Program-made: the position numbers and the translations under genes
The notes under the pieces: generated by a model
What the model was told of the DNA's origin: nothing
Database searches by the model: none
The model's input: only the letters and a program-made list of their open reading frames with translations
Assembly: GCA_947374225.1 (NCBI GenBank)
Contig: CANCAY010000002.1
Location: 1-64,000 of the forward strand
Length of the DNA stretch: 64,000 nucleotides
Source: Chitinophagaceae bacterium
GTDB lineage: Bacteria; Bacteroidota; Bacteroidia; Chitinophagales; Chitinophagaceae
Direction: 5' to 3'
Shown: piece after piece, positions 1 to 49,767 of the stretch
How positions within the stretch are numbered: the first letter of the stretch is position 1
How the letters are laid out: each line of letters starts with the position of its first letter

Positions 1-1482
1 TGCGTCCTTGGGAATTTCAATGGTCGTTTGTAAGCTGCTGCTATTTGTAATATTCATTGTCGCGTTGCTTTTATTTTTTAAAAACTGCCACCACTTAATT
101 GTATAAGCATCTCCGTCTGGTTCTTTTACGAATGCGTTTAATTTTAGGATATCACCTGGTTTTGCGTTTATTGCTTTTGCACCTTTAATATTTACAATAG
201 GAGCATGATTGGCGTTATTGTAATTGCTATTCAAAGACCAGTCCATTCTTGCAGCAAATTCATTTTGTGCTGCAGGGAAAAAATTAGGGAATGCAATATT
301 ACTTGCCTCTGCTGCTGCCATCTTTTTTAAATAAGCTTCTGAAATTACTAGCGCTTTTACTTTAGTGGTGTCATTGCTAAATGGATCAATATAGGTTGCA
401 GGGTCCGGAAGGAAGGGTCTGCCGCCCCAACCGCCTGGACTTTCTTTTTCGTAGGCGTTTAATCCGTTTGAAAGTATATTCATAAAAGTGCCGGTATCAC
501 CCTCTCCCAACCAAGACCCTTTTTGTTGCTTGGGCATCCAAACGATATAGCCCATTTTCTTTAATTCTTCATTGCTGTAACCATCTATTCCAAAATAATC
601 AAAAGGATCATTTTTTACCATTTGCTTTCCGTCTCCCCACACTCTATATATGTTTCCAAAAGCGCCTTTTGACGTAATATTTTGTTGCATCCATTCTGTG
701 GTAAGCAAGGGCGCGTTTTCTGCATTAGCCACTAATTGTGCACCATATCCATAATTAGGACCGTTTTTATATTGTCTATAATCAATGCCGGGCCAATTTG
801 GTTTTATATACGTTGCATAAGTGTTGTCTTGTTCCCCGGAAGGCAATAACACTAATTTTTGAGTCACTTTTTTCTTAATAGCTAACCAATTTTTTTTGTT
901 TTTGTATTCATCTTCAATGGATTTTAATGCTCTTGCAATGGTGCTTTGTCCTCCCCAAGCAGTTACGTATACTGGCCCTGCAATACTATCTAATAAGACT
1001 GTTTTAATTAAATTGGAACCTTCTGTGTCTTTTGAATAATCTCCTTCAAATTCAATATTGCCGTATTTAATTTTTGATTTTAAATAAGCTGGTGTTGGAT
1101 AACCTGCATCATGGACTTTTAAATTAGCATAAGACTTTTCATACGCTTCAACCGCTTCATGTATAAAACGCTCGTCTTGTCTCCAACGATAAGATTCACA
1201 AGGACAAAGGTTTAACCCGTATTTAGTGTACTCTCTTCCTGGTACCATAAACTTTGTTCCTTTTCCGTCTCCCTTCCAATGAAACTGACTGCTTGTATAT
1301 ACCAAGCCTTCCACTTTGAATTCTGAACTATATAATAAGAATCGAATAAGTGAATTATTGTCGTCCAATTCAGGGTCGGCAGTAATAATGATTCTTGGCT
1401 TTGTATTATTCTGAGTAGCGTATGTAAATTTTGGATAAGCCAACACAAGTAGCATCAAAGCAAGTAGTATTCGGTTTTTCAT
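1..1482 (-). CDS. DUF1593-type nucleoside-hydrolase-like secreted protein, partial (runs off the left edge)
   Basis: Reverse-strand translation from ATG at 1482 is open to the window edge: MKNRILLALMLLVLAYPKFTYATQNNTKPRIIITADPELDDNNSLIRFLLYSSEFKVEGLVYTSSQFHWKGDGKGTKF... The DPELDDNNSLIR motif and C-terminal cadherin/PKD-like part fit DUF1593. Missing from the ORF track, which lists only an out-of-frame ORF (1212-1448). Confidence 0.85.
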   Translation of the reverse strand, partial: MKNRILLALMLLVLAYPKFTYATQNNTKPRIIITADPELDDNNSLIRFLLYSSEFKVEGLVYTSSQFHWKGDGKGTKFMVPGREYTKYGLNLCPCESYRWRQDERFIHEAVEAYEKSYANLKVHDAGYPTPAYLKSKIKYGNIEFEGDYSKDTEGSNLIKTVLLDSIAGPVYVTAWGGQSTIARALKSIEDEYKNKKNWLAIKKKVTQKLVLLPSGEQDNTYATYIKPNWPGIDYRQYKNGPNYGYGAQLVANAENAPLLTTEWMQQNITSKGAFGNIYRVWGDGKQMVKNDPFDYFGIDGYSNEELKKMGYIVWMPKQQKGSWLGEGDTGTFMNILSNGLNAYEKESPGGWGGRPFLPDPATYIDPFSNDTTKVKALVISEAYLKKMAAAEASNIAFPNFFPAAQNEFAARMDWSLNSNYNNANHAPIVNIKGAKAINAKPGDILKLNAFVKEPDGDAYTIKWWQFLKNKSNATMNITNSSSLQTTIEIPKDA

Positions 1483-1496
1483 GTAAGTCATTTATT

Positions 1497-1859
1497 TTAT
1501 GAAAGCTCTTTAATAATTTTCTTCGCCACATTTTTATTTCCCCAATTAGCTAATTCATGGAGTATAGGCATTAAGCTTTTGCCACTAGTGGTAAGCTCAT
1601 ATTCAACACGAGGTGGTAATTCTAAAAATTCAGTTCTCTTCACTAAGCCAAAATTCTCCAATTCTTTTAATTCATTTGCTAATACCTTATTCGATATAGC
1701 AGGTATAATTTGATTTAGTTTTCCAAAACGAATAGCTCTTTCTCCAATGCAGTTTAGAATTATCGGCTTCCATTTGCCACCAATAATACTCATGGTTCTT
1801 GTTACTGGACAATTCAACGGATTATCTATAAAGCGGGAATTGAAATTAGTGGTTACCAT
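1497..1859 (-). CDS. HxlR-family winged-helix transcriptional regulator
   Basis: CPVTRTMSIIGGKWKPIILNCIGERAIRFGKLNQIIPAISNKVLANELKELE is typical HxlR. Confidence 0.93.
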   Translation of the reverse strand: MVTTNFNSRFIDNPLNCPVTRTMSIIGGKWKPIILNCIGERAIRFGKLNQIIPAISNKVLANELKELENFGLVKRTEFLELPPRVEYELTTSGKSLMPILHELANWGNKNVAKKIIKELS

Positions 1860-1938
1860 TAGGTTACTTGTATTTACTATTTAAGTAACAAATATACACT
1901 GTACAACATAATTTTGTGAAAATTATTTTAATAGTTAT

Positions 1939-3060
1939 ATGAAAATCAATAAAAGTATTTTAATCTTAGTTGCTGTATTTGCATCTTTAAATGTTTTTGC
2001 TCAATCTAGTATTAAGAATCAAACAAGTATTAGCAATGGCGAGTCTGCCACTGTAAAATTATATGTAAACCCAAATATTGGTAACGATATTTTTGAGGGC
2101 AGTAAGGAAAGTCCAATTAAATCCTTGCCAGAAGCGGCCAAGCGTGTTAGTAAAATGACAGGAGAAGGTGCTATAAGTGTATTTCTTTCTTCAGGAACTT
2201 ACGGCTTATATGAAACTGCTTCTTTTAATCCAATCCATTGGAAATTTAACAAAGAAGACAGATTAGTTATTCGTGCTGAGGTTTTACCTGACAGCTTATC
2301 GTGGGCCCCTGGTAAAATGCCTATTATAGTTTCTACCATGCCATTTAAACTTTCACTAAACGAGCAGAAAGAAGTTACGGATGGTTCTAATTATGGTATT
2401 GAAATTAACACAAGTCATGTAACTATTCAAGGTTTGAGAATTTTAGGCGAGCCAATACATGAGAAACCTAGAGAAGGCCTACTAATCAGAAACTATCCAA
2501 TAGTTTGGGAAGGAAAAAATTTAGTCGATTTAAGAGTTACGCAATGTTTATTCTTGGGAAATAAATTCGCACTACCGAACCATTTGGGGATATTAGCGAA
2601 TGGAAGTGAGCTTACAGTTGACCACTGCGTTTTTTATGGAGTTAAGGATGCTGTTGTTATGTGGAATAATAAATCAGACAAATCCAGCATGCATCATAAT
2701 TTAATTCTGAACATTTATGGGGCAGCTGTTTGGACTTGGTCAACAACAGAAGACTTTAAATTTTACAACAATGTGGTGAACAATGCGAATGTGTTTTGGG
2801 TTTTAGAAAAAGACGCGCATAATACTTTCAAAATAGAAAAATCCATGTTAATTGGTTACAATCAATTTGTCAATAAAGGAGGCGGTCCGCAAGAATTTGG
2901 TATTCCTGCAGATAAGTCAAAATTGAAATATAGTACTGACTTTAAAATCAAGAAAACAGGGACACTGAATATTGAGGAAGATCAAACTAGTCGTTATTAT
3001 TTACAATTGAAGCCAGGCACTTTAGGTACTGAATACGGTGCTGGATTATTCTATAAATAA
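1939..3060 (+). CDS. secreted right-handed parallel beta-helix protein
   Basis: Signal peptide; LYVNPNIGNDIFEGSKESPIKSLPEAAKR followed by beta-helix-like coils (VTIQGLRILG, LTVDHCVFYGVKDAVV). Confidence 0.65.
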   Translation: MKINKSILILVAVFASLNVFAQSSIKNQTSISNGESATVKLYVNPNIGNDIFEGSKESPIKSLPEAAKRVSKMTGEGAISVFLSSGTYGLYETASFNPIHWKFNKEDRLVIRAEVLPDSLSWAPGKMPIIVSTMPFKLSLNEQKEVTDGSNYGIEINTSHVTIQGLRILGEPIHEKPREGLLIRNYPIVWEGKNLVDLRVTQCLFLGNKFALPNHLGILANGSELTVDHCVFYGVKDAVVMWNNKSDKSSMHHNLILNIYGAAVWTWSTTEDFKFYNNVVNNANVFWVLEKDAHNTFKIEKSMLIGYNQFVNKGGGPQEFGIPADKSKLKYSTDFKIKKTGTLNIEEDQTSRYYLQLKPGTLGTEYGAGLFYK

Positions 3061-3098
3061 ATTTACACTTCCTTATTAGCAATTCTGACAATAGCATT

Positions 3099-3983
3099 AT
3101 GAAAAATTACTTACATAAATTACTAGCAACGCTTGTTTTAAATATCATTTTTAGCAGTCTTCTTTTCGCGCAATTGCCAATGCGTCATTTTATGCAGAAT
3201 GCAGATATTCCTTCAAATAAAGTATCCTATGGAAATAATACCAGTGCTGGTCATTTTGTAAAATCAGGAGACGCGAAGATTTATTACGAAGTGTATGGGA
3301 AAGGCAATACGGTTGTTCTGTTACATGGTGGCTTATTTGGTTCTACTATTGAAATGGCAGATTTTATTGATAGCCTATCTAAAACATTTCAAGTTATTGC
3401 CATTTCAACCAGAGGTCATGGAAAATCAGAAATTGGAAGCGATTCTTTAACGCTAGAACAAAGAGCCGGTGATGTATTAAACGTAATTAATGAAGTTACA
3501 AAGGAGAAAGTAAGTATCATAGGTTTTAGTGATGGCGGCTACACTGCCTACAAATTTGCTTCTTTGTATCCGGATAGAGTAAATAAAATGGTAGTTATTG
3601 GTGCAGGTATATTGTACCCAGGACTAAGAGATTTTTCTTTTAATATTAATCAAGCAATGGAATTAGACAAGGCTTTTTGGAAACAGCAACTAGCTATAAT
3701 GCCTGAGCCCAATAGATTAGAACACGTATTTAAACAAGTGGCTAATTGCTATAGTAAACTAACTGTTGGAAAGGATTTATTGGGCTCCATACAATGTCCT
3801 GTTTTAGTAATGGCAGGGGATAGCGACGGCGGCAATTCAGTTCAAAATGTATTAAATGCTGCTTTGTTAATTCCGAATCACCAAATCGCAATCATTCCAA
3901 ATGCCGGACACCCAGCTTTTAACGACAATTTTGCTGCAGCCTGGGCTTGTGTTGCGCCGTTTATGATTTTTGTCAGTAGATAA
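3099..3983 (+). CDS. alpha/beta hydrolase, secreted
   Basis: Signal peptide; VVLLHGGLFGS, GFSDGGYTAY nucleophile elbow, NAGHPAF catalytic His. Confidence 0.9.
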   Translation: MKNYLHKLLATLVLNIIFSSLLFAQLPMRHFMQNADIPSNKVSYGNNTSAGHFVKSGDAKIYYEVYGKGNTVVLLHGGLFGSTIEMADFIDSLSKTFQVIAISTRGHGKSEIGSDSLTLEQRAGDVLNVINEVTKEKVSIIGFSDGGYTAYKFASLYPDRVNKMVVIGAGILYPGLRDFSFNINQAMELDKAFWKQQLAIMPEPNRLEHVFKQVANCYSKLTVGKDLLGSIQCPVLVMAGDSDGGNSVQNVLNAALLIPNHQIAIIPNAGHPAFNDNFAAAWACVAPFMIFVSR

Positions 3984-4386
3984 TATTTATGTAAATGTTT
4001 TGGGATATCTTCGCGCCATATTGAGATATTCTATTGTCATATTACTATTTACAGCACTTATTGCACAGAGCTTCTCTAGGTCCTTGGTATTGGCCGATTA
4101 TATGGTCAATGTAGAAACCTATAAGAAGAGTTGTGAAAATAAGGCTAAGCCTATGTTGCATTGTAATGGTAAATGTCAAATGCTTAAAAAAATGAAGAAG
4201 CAGGAAGGAGATTCGGGTTCAAATGCTACTGCTCCTAAGTTCAATGAAGTTGAACTAGTTTTATCCTCAAAATCTTTTTTTCCTAGTATCGAGTTTGTTG
4301 TTTCTGACAAACTTAAATCCTTTTATTCCTATAATAGTGCTTTCTCTTCTAACTATATAGGTACTGTATTTCATCCACCCGCTTAG
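3970..4386 (+). CDS. small membrane-anchored CxGKC-motif protein (start may be TTG near 4018)
   Basis: One TM segment, then YKKSCENKAKPMLHCNGKCQMLKKMKKQE and C-terminal FHPPA. Upstream of an MbnP-like gene. Confidence 0.65.
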   Translation: MSVDNIYVNVLGYLRAILRYSIVILLFTALIAQSFSRSLVLADYMVNVETYKKSCENKAKPMLHCNGKCQMLKKMKKQEGDSGSNATAPKFNEVELVLSSKSFFPSIEFVVSDKLKSFYSYNSAFSSNYIGTVFHPPA

Positions 4387-4522
4387 TTTTTCTTTCTACA
4401 TCTATTGAGTGGTCCTTCATTTAGTTGGACTTGCTAACAGCATGATATCATCACCGCTGGCACAACTATTATTTTATCAATCATATTGGATACTATATCC
4501 AGTAATTTATATATTCCTACGA

Positions 4523-5317
4523 ATGAAAAAACTATTATTGCTTTTTATACCCTTAGTTACAATGTCCTTTTCTTGTAAAAAAGACACTGTTCCACAATAC
4601 AATGCTACTATTAAAACGCCTTTATCTATTGAATTTGACAATATTATTGGCGGGTCAGACCTTCAATTAGGGACAGCATCTTATTCCAATGCTAATAACG
4701 AACAGTTTAAAGTTACCATGCTGAAATATTTTGTAAGTAATATAGTGCTTACAAAAACGGACGGTACAAAATATACAGTACCACAAGACAGTTGTTATTT
4801 TTTAATTGACGAATCAAAAGCTGCAACTTTATCTTCTATAATTAATATACCAGAAGGAGAATATGCGAAACTTGATTTTGTATTGGGAGTTGATAGTTTA
4901 AGAAATACAAAAGACTTATCGCAAAGAACTGGAAAATTAGATCCAACAGGTGATGCAGCAGGTATGTATTGGAGTTGGAATAGTGGTTATATATTTTTCA
5001 AAATGGAAGGCACCGCAGTTGTTTCACCACAAGTAAATAATGTTTTTCAATACCATATCGGGCTTTTTGGTGGGTATACTGCCCCAACTTTAAATAATCT
5101 AAAAAATATCTCCATCGACTTGACTGCAAGAGGTATTGCAAAAGTAAAAACTGGGAAAACACCTAATATTCATTTACTCGTTGATGCTATGAAAATGTTT
5201 AATGGCTCAACCAATATTAGTATTGCAACCAATTCAGTTGTGATGGCATCCGCGCTAAGTGCTAAAGTAGCAGATAATTATGCAAACATGTTTCAACACG
5301 ATCATACCGAGAACTAA
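4523..5317 (+). CDS. MbnP-family lipoprotein (putative copper-binding partner of MbnH)
   Basis: Start trimmed from ORF 4409 to ATG 4523 (MKKLLLLFIPLVTMSFSCKK lipobox). SIEFDNIIGGSDLQLG..., KYFVSNIVL..., GMYWSWNSGYIFFKMEG are MbnP-like. Confidence 0.8.
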   Translation: MKKLLLLFIPLVTMSFSCKKDTVPQYNATIKTPLSIEFDNIIGGSDLQLGTASYSNANNEQFKVTMLKYFVSNIVLTKTDGTKYTVPQDSCYFLIDESKAATLSSIINIPEGEYAKLDFVLGVDSLRNTKDLSQRTGKLDPTGDAAGMYWSWNSGYIFFKMEGTAVVSPQVNNVFQYHIGLFGGYTAPTLNNLKNISIDLTARGIAKVKTGKTPNIHLLVDAMKMFNGSTNISIATNSVVMASALSAKVADNYANMFQHDHTEN

Positions 5318-6342
5318 TGAAACCAAAAAATATTGTATACATCTTAGTACTAATATTTTTTATACTAGCATGTAAAAAAGAAGTAACCCAATTATTCGAA
5401 GGCTTTCAAAAGCCTTCGAATTTCCCTGAGCCAGTTTATAAATTTCAAAATAACAATATTACAAAGGCGGGTTTTGACCTTGGACGTAAATTGTTTTTTG
5501 ATCCAATGCTATCTGTAGATAATACAATAAGTTGCGGGTCCTGCCATATACCAACAAGCGCATTTACACAACATGGCCACAGTGTTAGTCATGGTATTAA
5601 TGACTTATTGGGTACTAGGAATAGCCCACCAATTATGAATTTAGCTTGGAGTTCCAGTTTTATGTGGGATGGTGGCATTGCCGACTTGGACTTGCAACCT
5701 ATTGCCCCTATTACAAATCATGTAGAGATGGGGGAGACCATGTCGAATGTTCTTCTAAAACTTAAAAACAAAACTGAGTATGCTCAGCTATTTAAAGCGG
5801 CTTTTGGATCCGAAGAAGTGACTAATATAAAAATGCTTAAAGCCTTGTCTCAGTTTATGCTGATGTGTGTAAGCGCTGAATCTAAATATGACAGTGTTAT
5901 GCGAAAGCAGCAAACATTTACAACTGACGAAAAAGCAGGTTATCTACTATTTCAAAATAAGTGTAATTCATGTCATAAAGAGCCCTTGTTTACAGATAAC
6001 AATTTTAGAAATAATGGCTTGTAGCCAAGTAATTTGAATGATATTGGCAGAGAGCTGATTACACTTTTACCTACAGATACATATAAGTTCAAAGTACCTA
6101 GTTTACGTAATCTTGCCTACACAGCTCCTTATATGCATGACGGCAGATTTTTAAATGTTGATGCAGTTTTAGAACATTATAATAGCCAGGTAGTTCAAAC
6201 TAGTAACTTGGATCCTTTATTATATAGTAATGGAAAAAATGGAATTAGTTTAACCGCCGAGGAAAAAGGAAAGCTTTTAATTTTTCTAAATACGTTGAAC
6301 GATCGAAAATTTATTACCAATCCAATAATTGCTGAACAATGA
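5317..6342 (+). pseudogene. MbnH/MauG/CcpA-type diheme cytochrome c peroxidase interrupted by in-frame TAG at 6022-6024
   Basis: ORFs 5317-6024 and 6034-6342 share a frame. CGSCH and CNSCH heme motifs are upstream of the stop; PSLRNLAYTAPYMHDGRF is downstream. Confidence 0.8.
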
Positions 6343-7256
6343 GAAAAGTGAAATTAATATTGTTTTTTTCTATTCTATTAATACAATATCAGGTTTCAGC
6401 TTGTGATATTTGTGGCTGTGGAAATAATGGAAGCTATGTAGGCATAATGCCAGAATTTCAAAAAAACATTTTTGGAATTAGATACAGGCAAAATAGTTTA
6501 AGAACGCATGTTGGCAATAATGGGATGAACACTTATTTGACTAACAAGGAATCTTATACTTCTTATGAATTCTGGGGAAGTGTCAAAATTTCTAAACGTT
6601 TTAACTTATTGTTTACTTTGCCATATAATTCAAATGAAAGAACTAGTTCAATCGAACAACAGCATATCAATGGGCTGGGCGATATAAATTTGATGGGATA
6701 TTATACATTAGTACAGTCCAATAAATTAACCAAGGCTAATAAAGTATTTTTACAAAGTTTGAGGATTTCCGCTGGAATCAAATTGCCAACAGGGAGGTAC
6801 CAACAAACAGAAAACAGCTCCACTAGTCAACTGTTTACTTTAGGCACAGGAACCTTAGATTTTAATATTGGCGGAGTATATGAGGCAAGAATTCAAAATA
6901 CCGGGTTGAATTTAACGACTAATTATAAGATGAACACTTCAAATGAATTTGAATATCAATACGGTAACAAGCTTCAATTCAATACGCAGCTTTATCATAA
7001 ATATTTTATAAATGATAAGATAGCTGTATCACCTAATTTGGGATTGCAATTAGAAATAAATGACAAGGACTATAATAAGCAGACCATTGTACAAGTATCT
7101 GGCGGCTCCTTATTAAATGGAAGTATAGGAGCAGAGTTTAAAATAAATAATACCTTATTTGGCTTTAATTCTCAAACCCCTCTATTTCAAAATATCGGAA
7201 ACAAAATGATAGTGACTAATTCTAGGAATATGGTTCATCTTTCATTTGCATTTTAG
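6339..7256 (+). CDS. outer-membrane beta-barrel-like protein with N-terminal CDICGCGN motif
   Basis: Signal peptide then SACDICGCGNNGSYVG; alternating beta-strand pattern and C-terminal aromatic (LSFAF). ATGA overlap with upstream gene. Confidence 0.65.
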   Translation: MRKVKLILFFSILLIQYQVSACDICGCGNNGSYVGIMPEFQKNIFGIRYRQNSLRTHVGNNGMNTYLTNKESYTSYEFWGSVKISKRFNLLFTLPYNSNERTSSIEQQHINGLGDINLMGYYTLVQSNKLTKANKVFLQSLRISAGIKLPTGRYQQTENSSTSQLFTLGTGTLDFNIGGVYEARIQNTGLNLTTNYKMNTSNEFEYQYGNKLQFNTQLYHKYFINDKIAVSPNLGLQLEINDKDYNKQTIVQVSGGSLLNGSIGAEFKINNTLFGFNSQTPLFQNIGNKMIVTNSRNMVHLSFAF

Positions 7257-7277
7257 AAAATTATTAAAACACAATAA

Positions 7278-7634
7278 ATGAAACATTTAATTATACTACT
7301 TTTCTTTTTTAATTCATTTGCCTCATTTGCGCAAAGTGTAAACACCTCAATAGCTACTACTAAAATTAGTACTAACACGATCAACCCAAAAAAGAAATTG
7401 CTAACAGTAGAAGCTTCTTGTGGTCAATGTCAATTTAAAATGAAAGGGAAGGGTTGTACGTTAGCTATTAGAATACTCGGCAAACCTTATTTTGTGGACA
7501 AAGCAAATATTGATTCTTTTGGTGACGCACATGCTAAAATGGGATTTTGTAATGCTATCAGCATGGCAAAAGTGCAAGGGAAAATAGTGAATAATAAATT
7601 CGTAGCAACTTATTTTAAACTGATCGAGCACTGA
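7278..7634 (+). CDS. DUF6370-like Cys-rich secreted protein
   Basis: Signal peptide; VEASCGQCQFKMKGKGCTLAIRILGKPYFVDKANIDSFGDAHAKMGFCNAI. Confidence 0.7.
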   Translation: MKHLIILLFFFNSFASFAQSVNTSIATTKISTNTINPKKKLLTVEASCGQCQFKMKGKGCTLAIRILGKPYFVDKANIDSFGDAHAKMGFCNAISMAKVQGKIVNNKFVATYFKLIEH

Positions 7635-8271
7635 GTATTAAAATACTGATATCGGTTTCTTGATTTAAATTTTCATTTTGATTTATATCTTCAGCCATTT
7701 GCAGAACAGTTCGTTTTACAAATGGCTGAATTGCTTTTGCGAATGGCGTAGCGGTAATTCTTTGCGGTGTAGCAATAATTATATTGGCGCCTTCTGCTAG
7801 GAATTTTTTTATCAATTGTATGAGTGCCTCAAATTGTGCCGGTGCATAATTAATATCACTTAATAGTATTGTATCTCCATATATATTATCTGGAAAATCA
7901 TTCCAGTCCAAGCACATGGCTTTTGTATTTTGCAATGCTAAGTGTTGAATATTTTTTTCAATTAATGTAACCGCTTCTGGAGCGTGGTCACTAATAATTA
8001 TTTCCAGTGCTTGATTCGCTATCATAAAAGAGGGGAGGCCAATCCCAGCTCCAATTTCTACCACTCGTTTCCCTTCTACCCAATGCGGTTCTGATTTTAA
8101 AAAGTTTGACATGGCAATAGCGGCCGGCCATATTTTCGCCCAAAATGGGAATGGAGTTGAATGGTCCTTTGCTAATTGCTCCTCGTATATTGTTTTTAAT
8201 TGTGCTGCTTCTGGAACAAAGATCATTAAGCCATCCTGCACTTCTATTAACTTATTTGGGTAAATGGCCAT
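7615..8271 (-). CDS. class I SAM-dependent methyltransferase (METTL/NNT1-like)
   Basis: PFPFWAKIWPAAIAMSNFL, VVEIGAGIGLPSFMIA, ILLSDINYAPAQFEAL. Confidence 0.82.
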   Translation of the reverse strand: MAIYPNKLIEVQDGLMIFVPEAAQLKTIYEEQLAKDHSTPFPFWAKIWPAAIAMSNFLKSEPHWVEGKRVVEIGAGIGLPSFMIANQALEIIISDHAPEAVTLIEKNIQHLALQNTKAMCLDWNDFPDNIYGDTILLSDINYAPAQFEALIQLIKKFLAEGANIIIATPQRITATPFAKAIQPFVKRTVLQMAEDINQNENLNQETDISILILSARSV

Positions 8272-8391
8272 AAAATTTTAAACAATATTTTGATTTCTAT
8301 TCAATGTCTATAAAATTATAATGTATTTGGCAAATTACGCTCCTTAGTATTACCAGAATTTTAGTAATTTTATCCCTTAACCAGTTTATAA

Positions 8392-10629
<2,238 letters not shown>

Positions 10630-48528: not shown

Positions 48529-49767
48529 TTATTTAATAAACGGGTCTGACCATCGCTTGTCTGTATACACTGCCGCGCCAGTTAGGGTTTTCATAAAAGC
48601 GGTTATGGCAGTTATTTCGTCTGCGGTCATGTTTAATTTTTGTCCAATATTATTGGGTCTTAATCTAGGATCTAAATTTGTATTGCGAACAATGCTAATA
48701 TTATTATAATGGCCTAATACATCTTGTATCGTTTTTAATTGACCCGTATGCATCATTGGGCTATTGGCAAGCCCATTTGGATTTATTAAATCTCTTAATG
48801 AGGCAGATCTTGTATTGGCAATATCTAATACAGTACTTCCTATAGTTCCAATTATTCCATTATTTCTAGTGTTGGAGTCGATATCAAACTCTGGGGCTCT
48901 ATGACAACCGTTACAACCAGCTCCACCACTAATTCTTACACTATTGCCGTCAAATACTGGCGGAGTGGAGAATAATGTTTTTCCGGTATTTTCTATGGTA
49001 GAATAATTAGGAAAATCTCTATTGTTATTGTTTACCTGAGCACGTCCAATATCATATTTAGAGTCGAATGACTGAATGCTACGTATAAATTGCGCCAATG
49101 ACTCTTGCAGTCTATTTTCAGTTATTAAAGTGTCTCCGTATGAAAATTTAAATAATTCCTTATAGTATCCAATGCCAGTTAATTTATTTAAAAGTGTTGA
49201 CATGGTGCCTCTTCCGTTTAATCCGCTAAAACCCATTTCAGCGTGATCCTGGATTGGCATGGTAGTTTGTATCTCAAGTGTCGCTGCTCTTTCATTCCAG
49301 AAAAATTTACTTTCTTCCGCAAATCTACTATTCACTAATCGCATTGCATGTCTAACCGTAAGGCCAGACTGTACACCGTCACTTTGAATTGCAGTGTCTC
49401 CAAAAGCAAATTTTTGATTATGACAACTACTACATGAAATTGTATTGTCTACACTTAAGTTTTTATCATAAAACAAGACCCTTCCTAGTGTTGCTTTAGC
49501 GTCTGTAATTGGATTTGCTGTCCCATTATCCTTTAAAATATAATTAGGCTTATTTTGATTTGCATAATTGAACAAACTTGTTGGATCAATATTAGTTCCA
49601 AATGCAATTTTTATATTGGCATAGGGGTCTACTGTTTTAGCAGTTTCTGTTACCACACTTGTTGTAGGACTTGTAGTTAGTGTACTTAAACTATCTGTTT
49701 TAGAGCAGCCAATTGCTATTACAGTGATTATTGCAGTGGAGATGATTGTTTTTGTAACGCTTCGCAT
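48529..49767 (-). CDS. diheme cytochrome c peroxidase-family protein
   Basis: CSSCH and CNGCH motifs; LGRVLFYDKNLSVDNTISCSSCHNQKFAFGD; SLRDLINPNGLANSPMMHTGQLKTI. Confidence 0.92.
   Translation of the reverse strand: MRSVTKTIISTAIITVIAIGCSKTDSLSTLTTSPTTSVVTETAKTVDPYANIKIAFGTNIDPTSLFNYANQNKPNYILKDNGTANPITDAKATLGRVLFYDKNLSVDNTISCSSCHNQKFAFGDTAIQSDGVQSGLTVRHAMRLVNSRFAEESKFFWNERAATLEIQTTMPIQDHAEMGFSGLNGRGTMSTLLNKLTGIGYYKELFKFSYGDTLITENRLQESLAQFIRSIQSFDSKYDIGRAQVNNNNRDFPNYSTIENTGKTLFSTPPVFDGNSVRISGGAGCNGCHRAPEFDIDSNTRNNGIIGTIGSTVLDIANTRSASLRDLINPNGLANSPMMHTGQLKTIQDVLGHYNNISIVRNTNLDPRLRPNNIGQKLNMTADEITAITAFMKTLTGAAVYTDKRWSDPFIK

Follow-up and report, generated by a model that had tools for sequence, protein, structure and literature searches.

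Four genes of the Bacteroidota, encoding a CxGKC protein, MbnP, an MbnH-like diheme enzyme, and a CGCG protein, form a conserved operon whose gene order is kept across the phylum. We read the locus as an envelope copper-handling operon built around the known MbnP/MbnH pair, in which Cu(I) would be captured and transferred, and put the probability of this reading at roughly 60%. The reading applies to the family and not to the copy studied here, in which the MbnH gene is interrupted.

Gene layout and conservation of the operon

The window (the whole stretch of DNA analyzed, 64,000 nucleotides) carries five same-strand genes at 4021–7634, as read directly from the sequence; all five had been proposed, for 4018–7634, by the initial annotation. 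The features are as follows:

4006–4013, + strand: −7-like box TATCTTCG, read directly, one mismatch to TAnnTTTG, directly 5′ of CxGKC
4021–4386, + strand: CxGKC protein, 121 aa, TTG start, with N-terminal hydrophobic helix, Cys motif, and C-terminal HPP
4523–5317, + strand: MbnP, 264 aa, lipobox Cys C18; PF20243, 188 bits
5317–6342, + strand: MbnH-like diheme enzyme frame, 341 codons, lipobox Cys C19; PF03150; TAG-interrupted
6022–6024, + strand: in-frame TAG, MbnH codon 236; CAG (Gln) in L157 and L158
6339–7256, + strand: CGCG protein, 305 aa, with Sec signal, CDICGCG, and predicted barrel (AlphaFold2, Foldseek)
7278–7634, + strand: DUF6370 secreted Cys-rich protein; PF19897, 118 bits; accessory neighbor, not core

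Both overlaps described in the initial annotation are exact: TAATG (5315–5319) joins the MbnP stop to the MbnH start, and ATGA (6339–6342) the stop of the MbnH frame to the CGCG start. Its motifs (GMYWSWNSGYIFFKMEG, HCNGKC, CDICGCGN, and CGQCQF...GKGC) were all found in the sequence, and its family names agree with the profile searches, in which MbnP scores 188 bits with PF20243 (cut-off 27), the N-terminal part of MbnH 170 bits with PF03150 (CCP_MauG), and DUF6370 118 bits with PF19897. The CxGKC and CGCG proteins matched no Pfam or NCBIfam family in these searches. One boundary moves: judged on a close relative (locus L033), the likeliest start of CxGKC is TTG 4021 and not 4018. For MbnP it is ATG 4523, and the ORF could also open at GTG 4409. 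The gap between the two genes, 136 bases in the window, is typical (median among loci, 183); it holds no credible Rfam match and no common words that would mark a conserved RNA element. A search for tandem repeats found none.

The −7 box of Bacteroidota is TAnnTTTG. Of 65 relatives, 54 have an exact copy in the ∼100 bases ahead of CxGKC, compared with a mean of 5.2 and a maximum of 12 in shuffles that preserve base composition only; ahead of MbnP it is found in two of 96. Across the relatives' loci the median gaps are five bases between MbnP and MbnH and nine between MbnH and CGCG. Because the box precedes CxGKC and rarely MbnP, and because these gaps are of a few bases, we treat the genes as one operon and the box before CxGKC as its presumed promoter, of which the window has an imperfect copy.

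To sample the family we ranked genome loci by similarity to the window's MbnP and kept the best 80 of at least 584 relatives, chiefly from Chitinophagaceae, Sphingobacteriaceae, and Cytophagales. In 68 of these best 80 loci (67 and the public contig L157) MbnP has CxGKC, MbnH, and CGCG on its own strand and no more than 4 kb away, mostly in the order CxGKC-MbnP-MbnH-CGCG; several of the exceptions sit on short contigs. In Pedobacter the MbnP-MbnH pair is frequently doubled. The flanks of the same best 80 provide a control. On the CxGKC side, 70 of 79 upstream neighbors are not shared between loci, and the most frequent gene family beyond CGCG turns up 11 times. The four core families are thus found together much more often than their flanking genes, and this co-occurrence is not a matter of chance.

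These loci were picked by similarity and their taxa are not independent, Pedobacter being over-represented; we therefore added a reverse test anchored on CGCG. A search of 148 genomes across the phylum, with a profile built mostly from MbnPH-linked CGCG proteins and hence favoring that type, gave 18 matches, 17 besides the window. MbnP and MbnH are present at 16 of the 17 loci, and 14 have the exact order CxGKC-MbnP-MbnH-CGCG. The three exceptions comprise one CxGKC-CGCG-MbnP-MbnH locus, one short-contig locus with no CxGKC, and one with no MbnPH. Among 39 other loci surveyed in the same taxonomic order, CxGKC adjoins MbnP in 12 and CGCG in six, always together with CxGKC. The synteny of CxGKC and CGCG with MbnPH expected by the initial annotation was largely right. 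Of the five families that it took to recur together, four do so very strongly (68 of the best 80; 14 of 17), and DUF6370 falls outside the conserved set.

Many of the loci come from related families, and with the excess of Pedobacter this could mean that the order was kept by common descent alone, without a functional link. We consider this most improbable: the flanking genes are not conserved, and the order persists at ∼45%–60% MbnP identity and in the phylum-wide CGCG loci.

The MbnP/MbnH pair and the stop codon

The predicted model of MbnP (pLDDT 91) has a sole significant Foldseek match in the PDB, the chains of 7L6G (E = 3e-12, TM 0.57), which is MbnP of Methylosinus trichosporium. With phmmer, MbnP alone found nothing in the PDB; a profile was needed for the alignment to 7L6G, which places GMYWSWNSG of the window protein against GMAWNWQAG. 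The initial annotation had singled out a Trp-rich block, and its first WxW residue, W150 (4970–4972), does align with the WxW of 7L6G. Both W150 and W152 (4976–4978) are invariant in 99 relatives, and MxWxW, which includes the preceding M148, is kept by all 16 MbnP proteins of the CGCG-anchored loci. The model thus predicts an MbnP fold for this protein, whose WxW is invariant. In the primary MbnP paper, the first WxW Trp is reportedly converted to kynurenine and required to bind Cu(I); by analogy, W150 would be oxidized to kynurenine by MbnH to make a Cu(I) site. At one CxGKC-MbnP locus without MbnH (L043), MbnP has neither WxW Trp (MYQNASNGY), a pattern consistent with co-loss of the enzyme and its substrate residue.

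MbnH carries the heme motifs CGSCH (5533–5547) and CNSCH (5962–5976) and the conserved inter-heme Trp, W117. Its best solved relative is 6e1c, 'Di-heme enzyme' (E = 2e-35), which we take to be MbnH, and as judged from sequence it is a MauG-type diheme protein. Residues 54–291 align with 12–297 of the MauG chain, placing Y288 opposite chain position 294; the substrate of MauG is methylamine dehydrogenase, whereas that of MbnH is expected to be MbnP. Its best NCBIfam match is TIGR04039, at 194.1 bits for the intact L157 copy against a cut-off of 362.85, and the MauG model gives that same copy 185.5 bits. MbnP likewise scores 51.8–52.8 bits with the equivalog TIGR04052, below its cut-off of 140. 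With both proteins far below the NCBI equivalog cut-offs, activity is transferred by homology only. A second MauG/CCP-like diheme protein, 38% identical to MbnH, is encoded in the window at 48571–49521 on the minus strand.

The initial annotation missed an in-frame TAG (6022–6024) at codon 236 of 341, past the second heme motif. After it, 105 codons stay in frame to 6342, keeping PSLRNLAYTAPYMHDGRF and Y288, the MauG-type Tyr conserved in 96% of MbnH relatives. The contig L157, 96.6% identical to the window over 8750 bases, has CAG (Gln) at codon 236 and an intact 341-aa MbnH; in L158 (MbnP 81% identical) the codon is also CAG and the frame intact. Recoding of TAG was rejected as unlikely: TAG ends the neighboring CxGKC and CGCG genes and the relatives have CAG. 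Differences between the window and L157 after the TAG are mainly synonymous (dS 0.31, dN 0.05), which points to a recent change or an assembly error. Either a genuine nonsense allele or a single miscalled base in the metagenome assembly would account for it. If the codon is real, MbnP would be made and not matured, and translational coupling to CGCG would be weakened.

Compatible with the family-level reading is the idea that the locus of this strain is a decaying remnant without function, which we hold possible, if doubtful. Beside the nonsense codon, it draws on the presence of MbnP in only eight of 37 genomes of the genus and on a congener (G019) whose copy lacks parts of CxGKC, MbnP, MbnH, and CGCG through two deletions, which makes loss within the genus credible. 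Against decay are the intact state of the nearly identical L157, the purifying selection on the post-TAG frame seen against that contig, and the chance that a single base in a metagenome assembly is an error or a mixed-strain call.

Some further observations concern these copies. Divergence from L157 rises inside MbnH, from <1% (1106–5855) to ∼8% (5856–9350), which suggests strain recombination or a chimeric assembly. The L157 record (CALPWK020000081.1) is titled 'Comamonas sp. lk' MAG, yet it matches a Bacteroidota sequence this closely, and looks misnamed or contaminated. In the deleted locus (L144; G019:C25) the 3′ part of CxGKC is fused to the end of MbnP, and the start of MbnH to the middle of CGCG. 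The MbnH of Niabella ginsengisoli (L188:9813–10837) is likewise split, into two ORFs.

CxGKC, CGCG, and DUF6370

The Cys motif of CxGKC, CENKAKPMLHCNGKC, lies at 4132–4176; its three Cys and two C-terminal Pro residues are invariant in 82 relatives. A Pfam search with 12 members gave no meaningful match for any of the 12, which rules out a known Pfam family (DUF2946 had been considered). Elsewhere CxGKC is the first gene of operons that contain a TonB-dependent receptor, in most cases separated from it by a YtkA-like gene (L149–L155), and of others with a TonB receptor and PepSY_TM. It is therefore not specific to MbnP, and may represent a broader family of markers for metal loci in the Bacteroidota envelope.

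For CGCG the prediction is an outer-membrane barrel with 12 strands, resembling COG4313 channels and preceded by an invariant Cys motif near the N terminus. Its AlphaFold2 model (pLDDT 87.5) has 12 strands at residues 44–304, and the top Foldseek match is the COG4313 channel 4RL8 (E = 3.9e-10). With the PF13557 profile the window protein gave no match, and one of seven relatives matched at E = 5e-4. CDICGCG (6402–6422) follows the Sec signal and precedes barrel strand 1; C22, C25, and G26 are invariant in 71 relatives, and C27 is kept in 94%. In 4RL8 the lumen is occluded by an N-terminal stretch of ∼14 residues that folds inward (PMC4493636). Because the Cys segment is disordered in the CGCG model, its putative luminal position is taken from that structure. 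As modeled, CGCG shares with COG4313/PF13557 the 12-stranded barrel and an N-terminal segment before strand 1, but differs in carrying CDICGCG within that segment and in belonging to no Pfam family. The known COG4313 members have been linked to transport of hydrophobic molecules rather than of ions, which counts against a metal role for CGCG.

DUF6370, which the initial annotation placed in the set, is ruled out as a core member: it is missing from 79 of the best 80 MbnP loci (all but L157) and from all 39 other loci of the taxonomic order, and it occurs in many congeners without MbnP. It adjoins CGCG only in the window, in L157, and in four congeners, where CGCG is of a different type and MbnPH is absent. 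This second CGCG type of the genus, CSICGCGGG, is found with CxGKC and DUF6370. The four loci L137–L140 have the conserved trio CxGKC-CGCG(CSICGCGGG)-DUF6370 without MbnPH, and beside the trio lies a relative of the methyltransferase encoded downstream in the window. The window's DUF6370 is nearest to the CSICGCGGG-linked copies (60%–64%, versus 52% for stand-alone copies), and for this reason it looks, within this genus, like an accessory protein of CGCG that now stands beside the MbnPH operon. A literature search for DUF6370 found no paper.

Proposed copper handling and its alternatives

Conservation of the MbnP/MbnH pair extends well past the producers of methanobactin, and MbnP shows no marked sequence similarity to MopE or CorA (PMC3621798). 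The window pair resembles this 'metallo-mystery pair' (TIGR04052/TIGR04039), for which a literature search by that name found no paper, in its adjacent genes, its predicted MbnP fold with WxW, and a MauG-like diheme enzyme with two CxxCH motifs; it differs in its equivalog scores, in that both are predicted lipoproteins, and in its fixed partners CxGKC and CGCG. CorA offers a precedent for kynurenine-Cu(I) binding with a co-transcribed diheme partner, and CorA and MopE share equivalent Trp-derived kynurenine chemistry (PMC3912023). As is proposed for the window pair, CorA/CorB and MopE/SACCP of methanotrophs place a copper protein with a Trp-derived kynurenine next to a diheme peroxidase gene (PMC3912023).

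The neighbors of the best 80 of at least 584 MbnP loci also bear on the metal. By clustering, SCO1/SenC is found near or in the operon, before or after it, at 19 of these 80; the exact CxxxCP motif is present at 16 loci, and three of 23 proteins lack the exact pattern. YHS-domain proteins occur at 14 of the same 80, and at one locus (L053) an HMA protein follows MbnP. The SCO1/SenC neighbors support copper independently of the MbnP annotation, and fall short of proof of metal identity. No methanobactin genes are among the annotated neighbors, and an operon independent of methanobactin is plausible.

The term copper may yet have been carried over from methanotroph homologs, with the pair acting instead on another metal or making another Trp-derived cofactor. 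The equivalog scores below cut-off and the near equality of the MauG and MbnH models allow for this, but 7L6G is the only significant fold match of MbnP, WxW is invariant across the phylum, and SCO1 and HMA proteins are neighbors; we regard it as quite improbable.

In the envelope copper-handling reading, MbnP matured at W150 would take up Cu(I) at the outer membrane, and CGCG would be an outer-membrane channel whose CDICGCG, in the lumen or at the periplasmic mouth, binds or gates the metal. On the inner side, CxGKC, anchored in the membrane, would accept Cu(I) and pass copper on, in some species perhaps to SCO1 and cytochrome oxidase. A fully specified version, a dedicated, TonB-free copper route through the outer membrane in which kynurenine-matured MbnP loads Cu(I) into the COG4313-type barrel past a luminal CDICGCG gate to CxGKC inside, is speculative and distinctly unlikely to hold as it stands.

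We consider transport inward, for acquisition, more likely than export. The opposite arrangement would be copper defense, with MbnP and the Cys-rich proteins sequestering excess Cu(I), and CGCG and nearby efflux pumps exporting it. Small Cys-rich proteins are common in metal defense, and one congener (G009) has an RND efflux pump (ACR_tran, 529 bits) and its partner genes directly upstream of CxGKC. We nevertheless think defense unlikely: among the best 80 of at least 584 loci SCO1/SenC, a delivery protein, is a far commoner neighbor than efflux genes; TonB receptors and PepSY_TM genes adjoin CxGKC elsewhere; and the analogs CorA and MopE are copper-repressed and were proposed to serve uptake (PMC3912023).

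The metal-handling role in the envelope proposed by the initial annotation is supported for four genes and in its metal theme, and not for DUF6370 as part of the set or for the enzyme frame, whose interruption it overlooked. MbnP/MbnH had no defined partners outside methanotrophs and now has two constant, unannotated ones across the phylum, whose members abound in soil and fresh water. CxGKC points to several envelope metal loci in Bacteroidota, and the putative metal-tagged CGCG channel makes the passage of MbnP copper across the membrane testable in culturable Pedobacter, Chitinophaga, and Hydrotalea.
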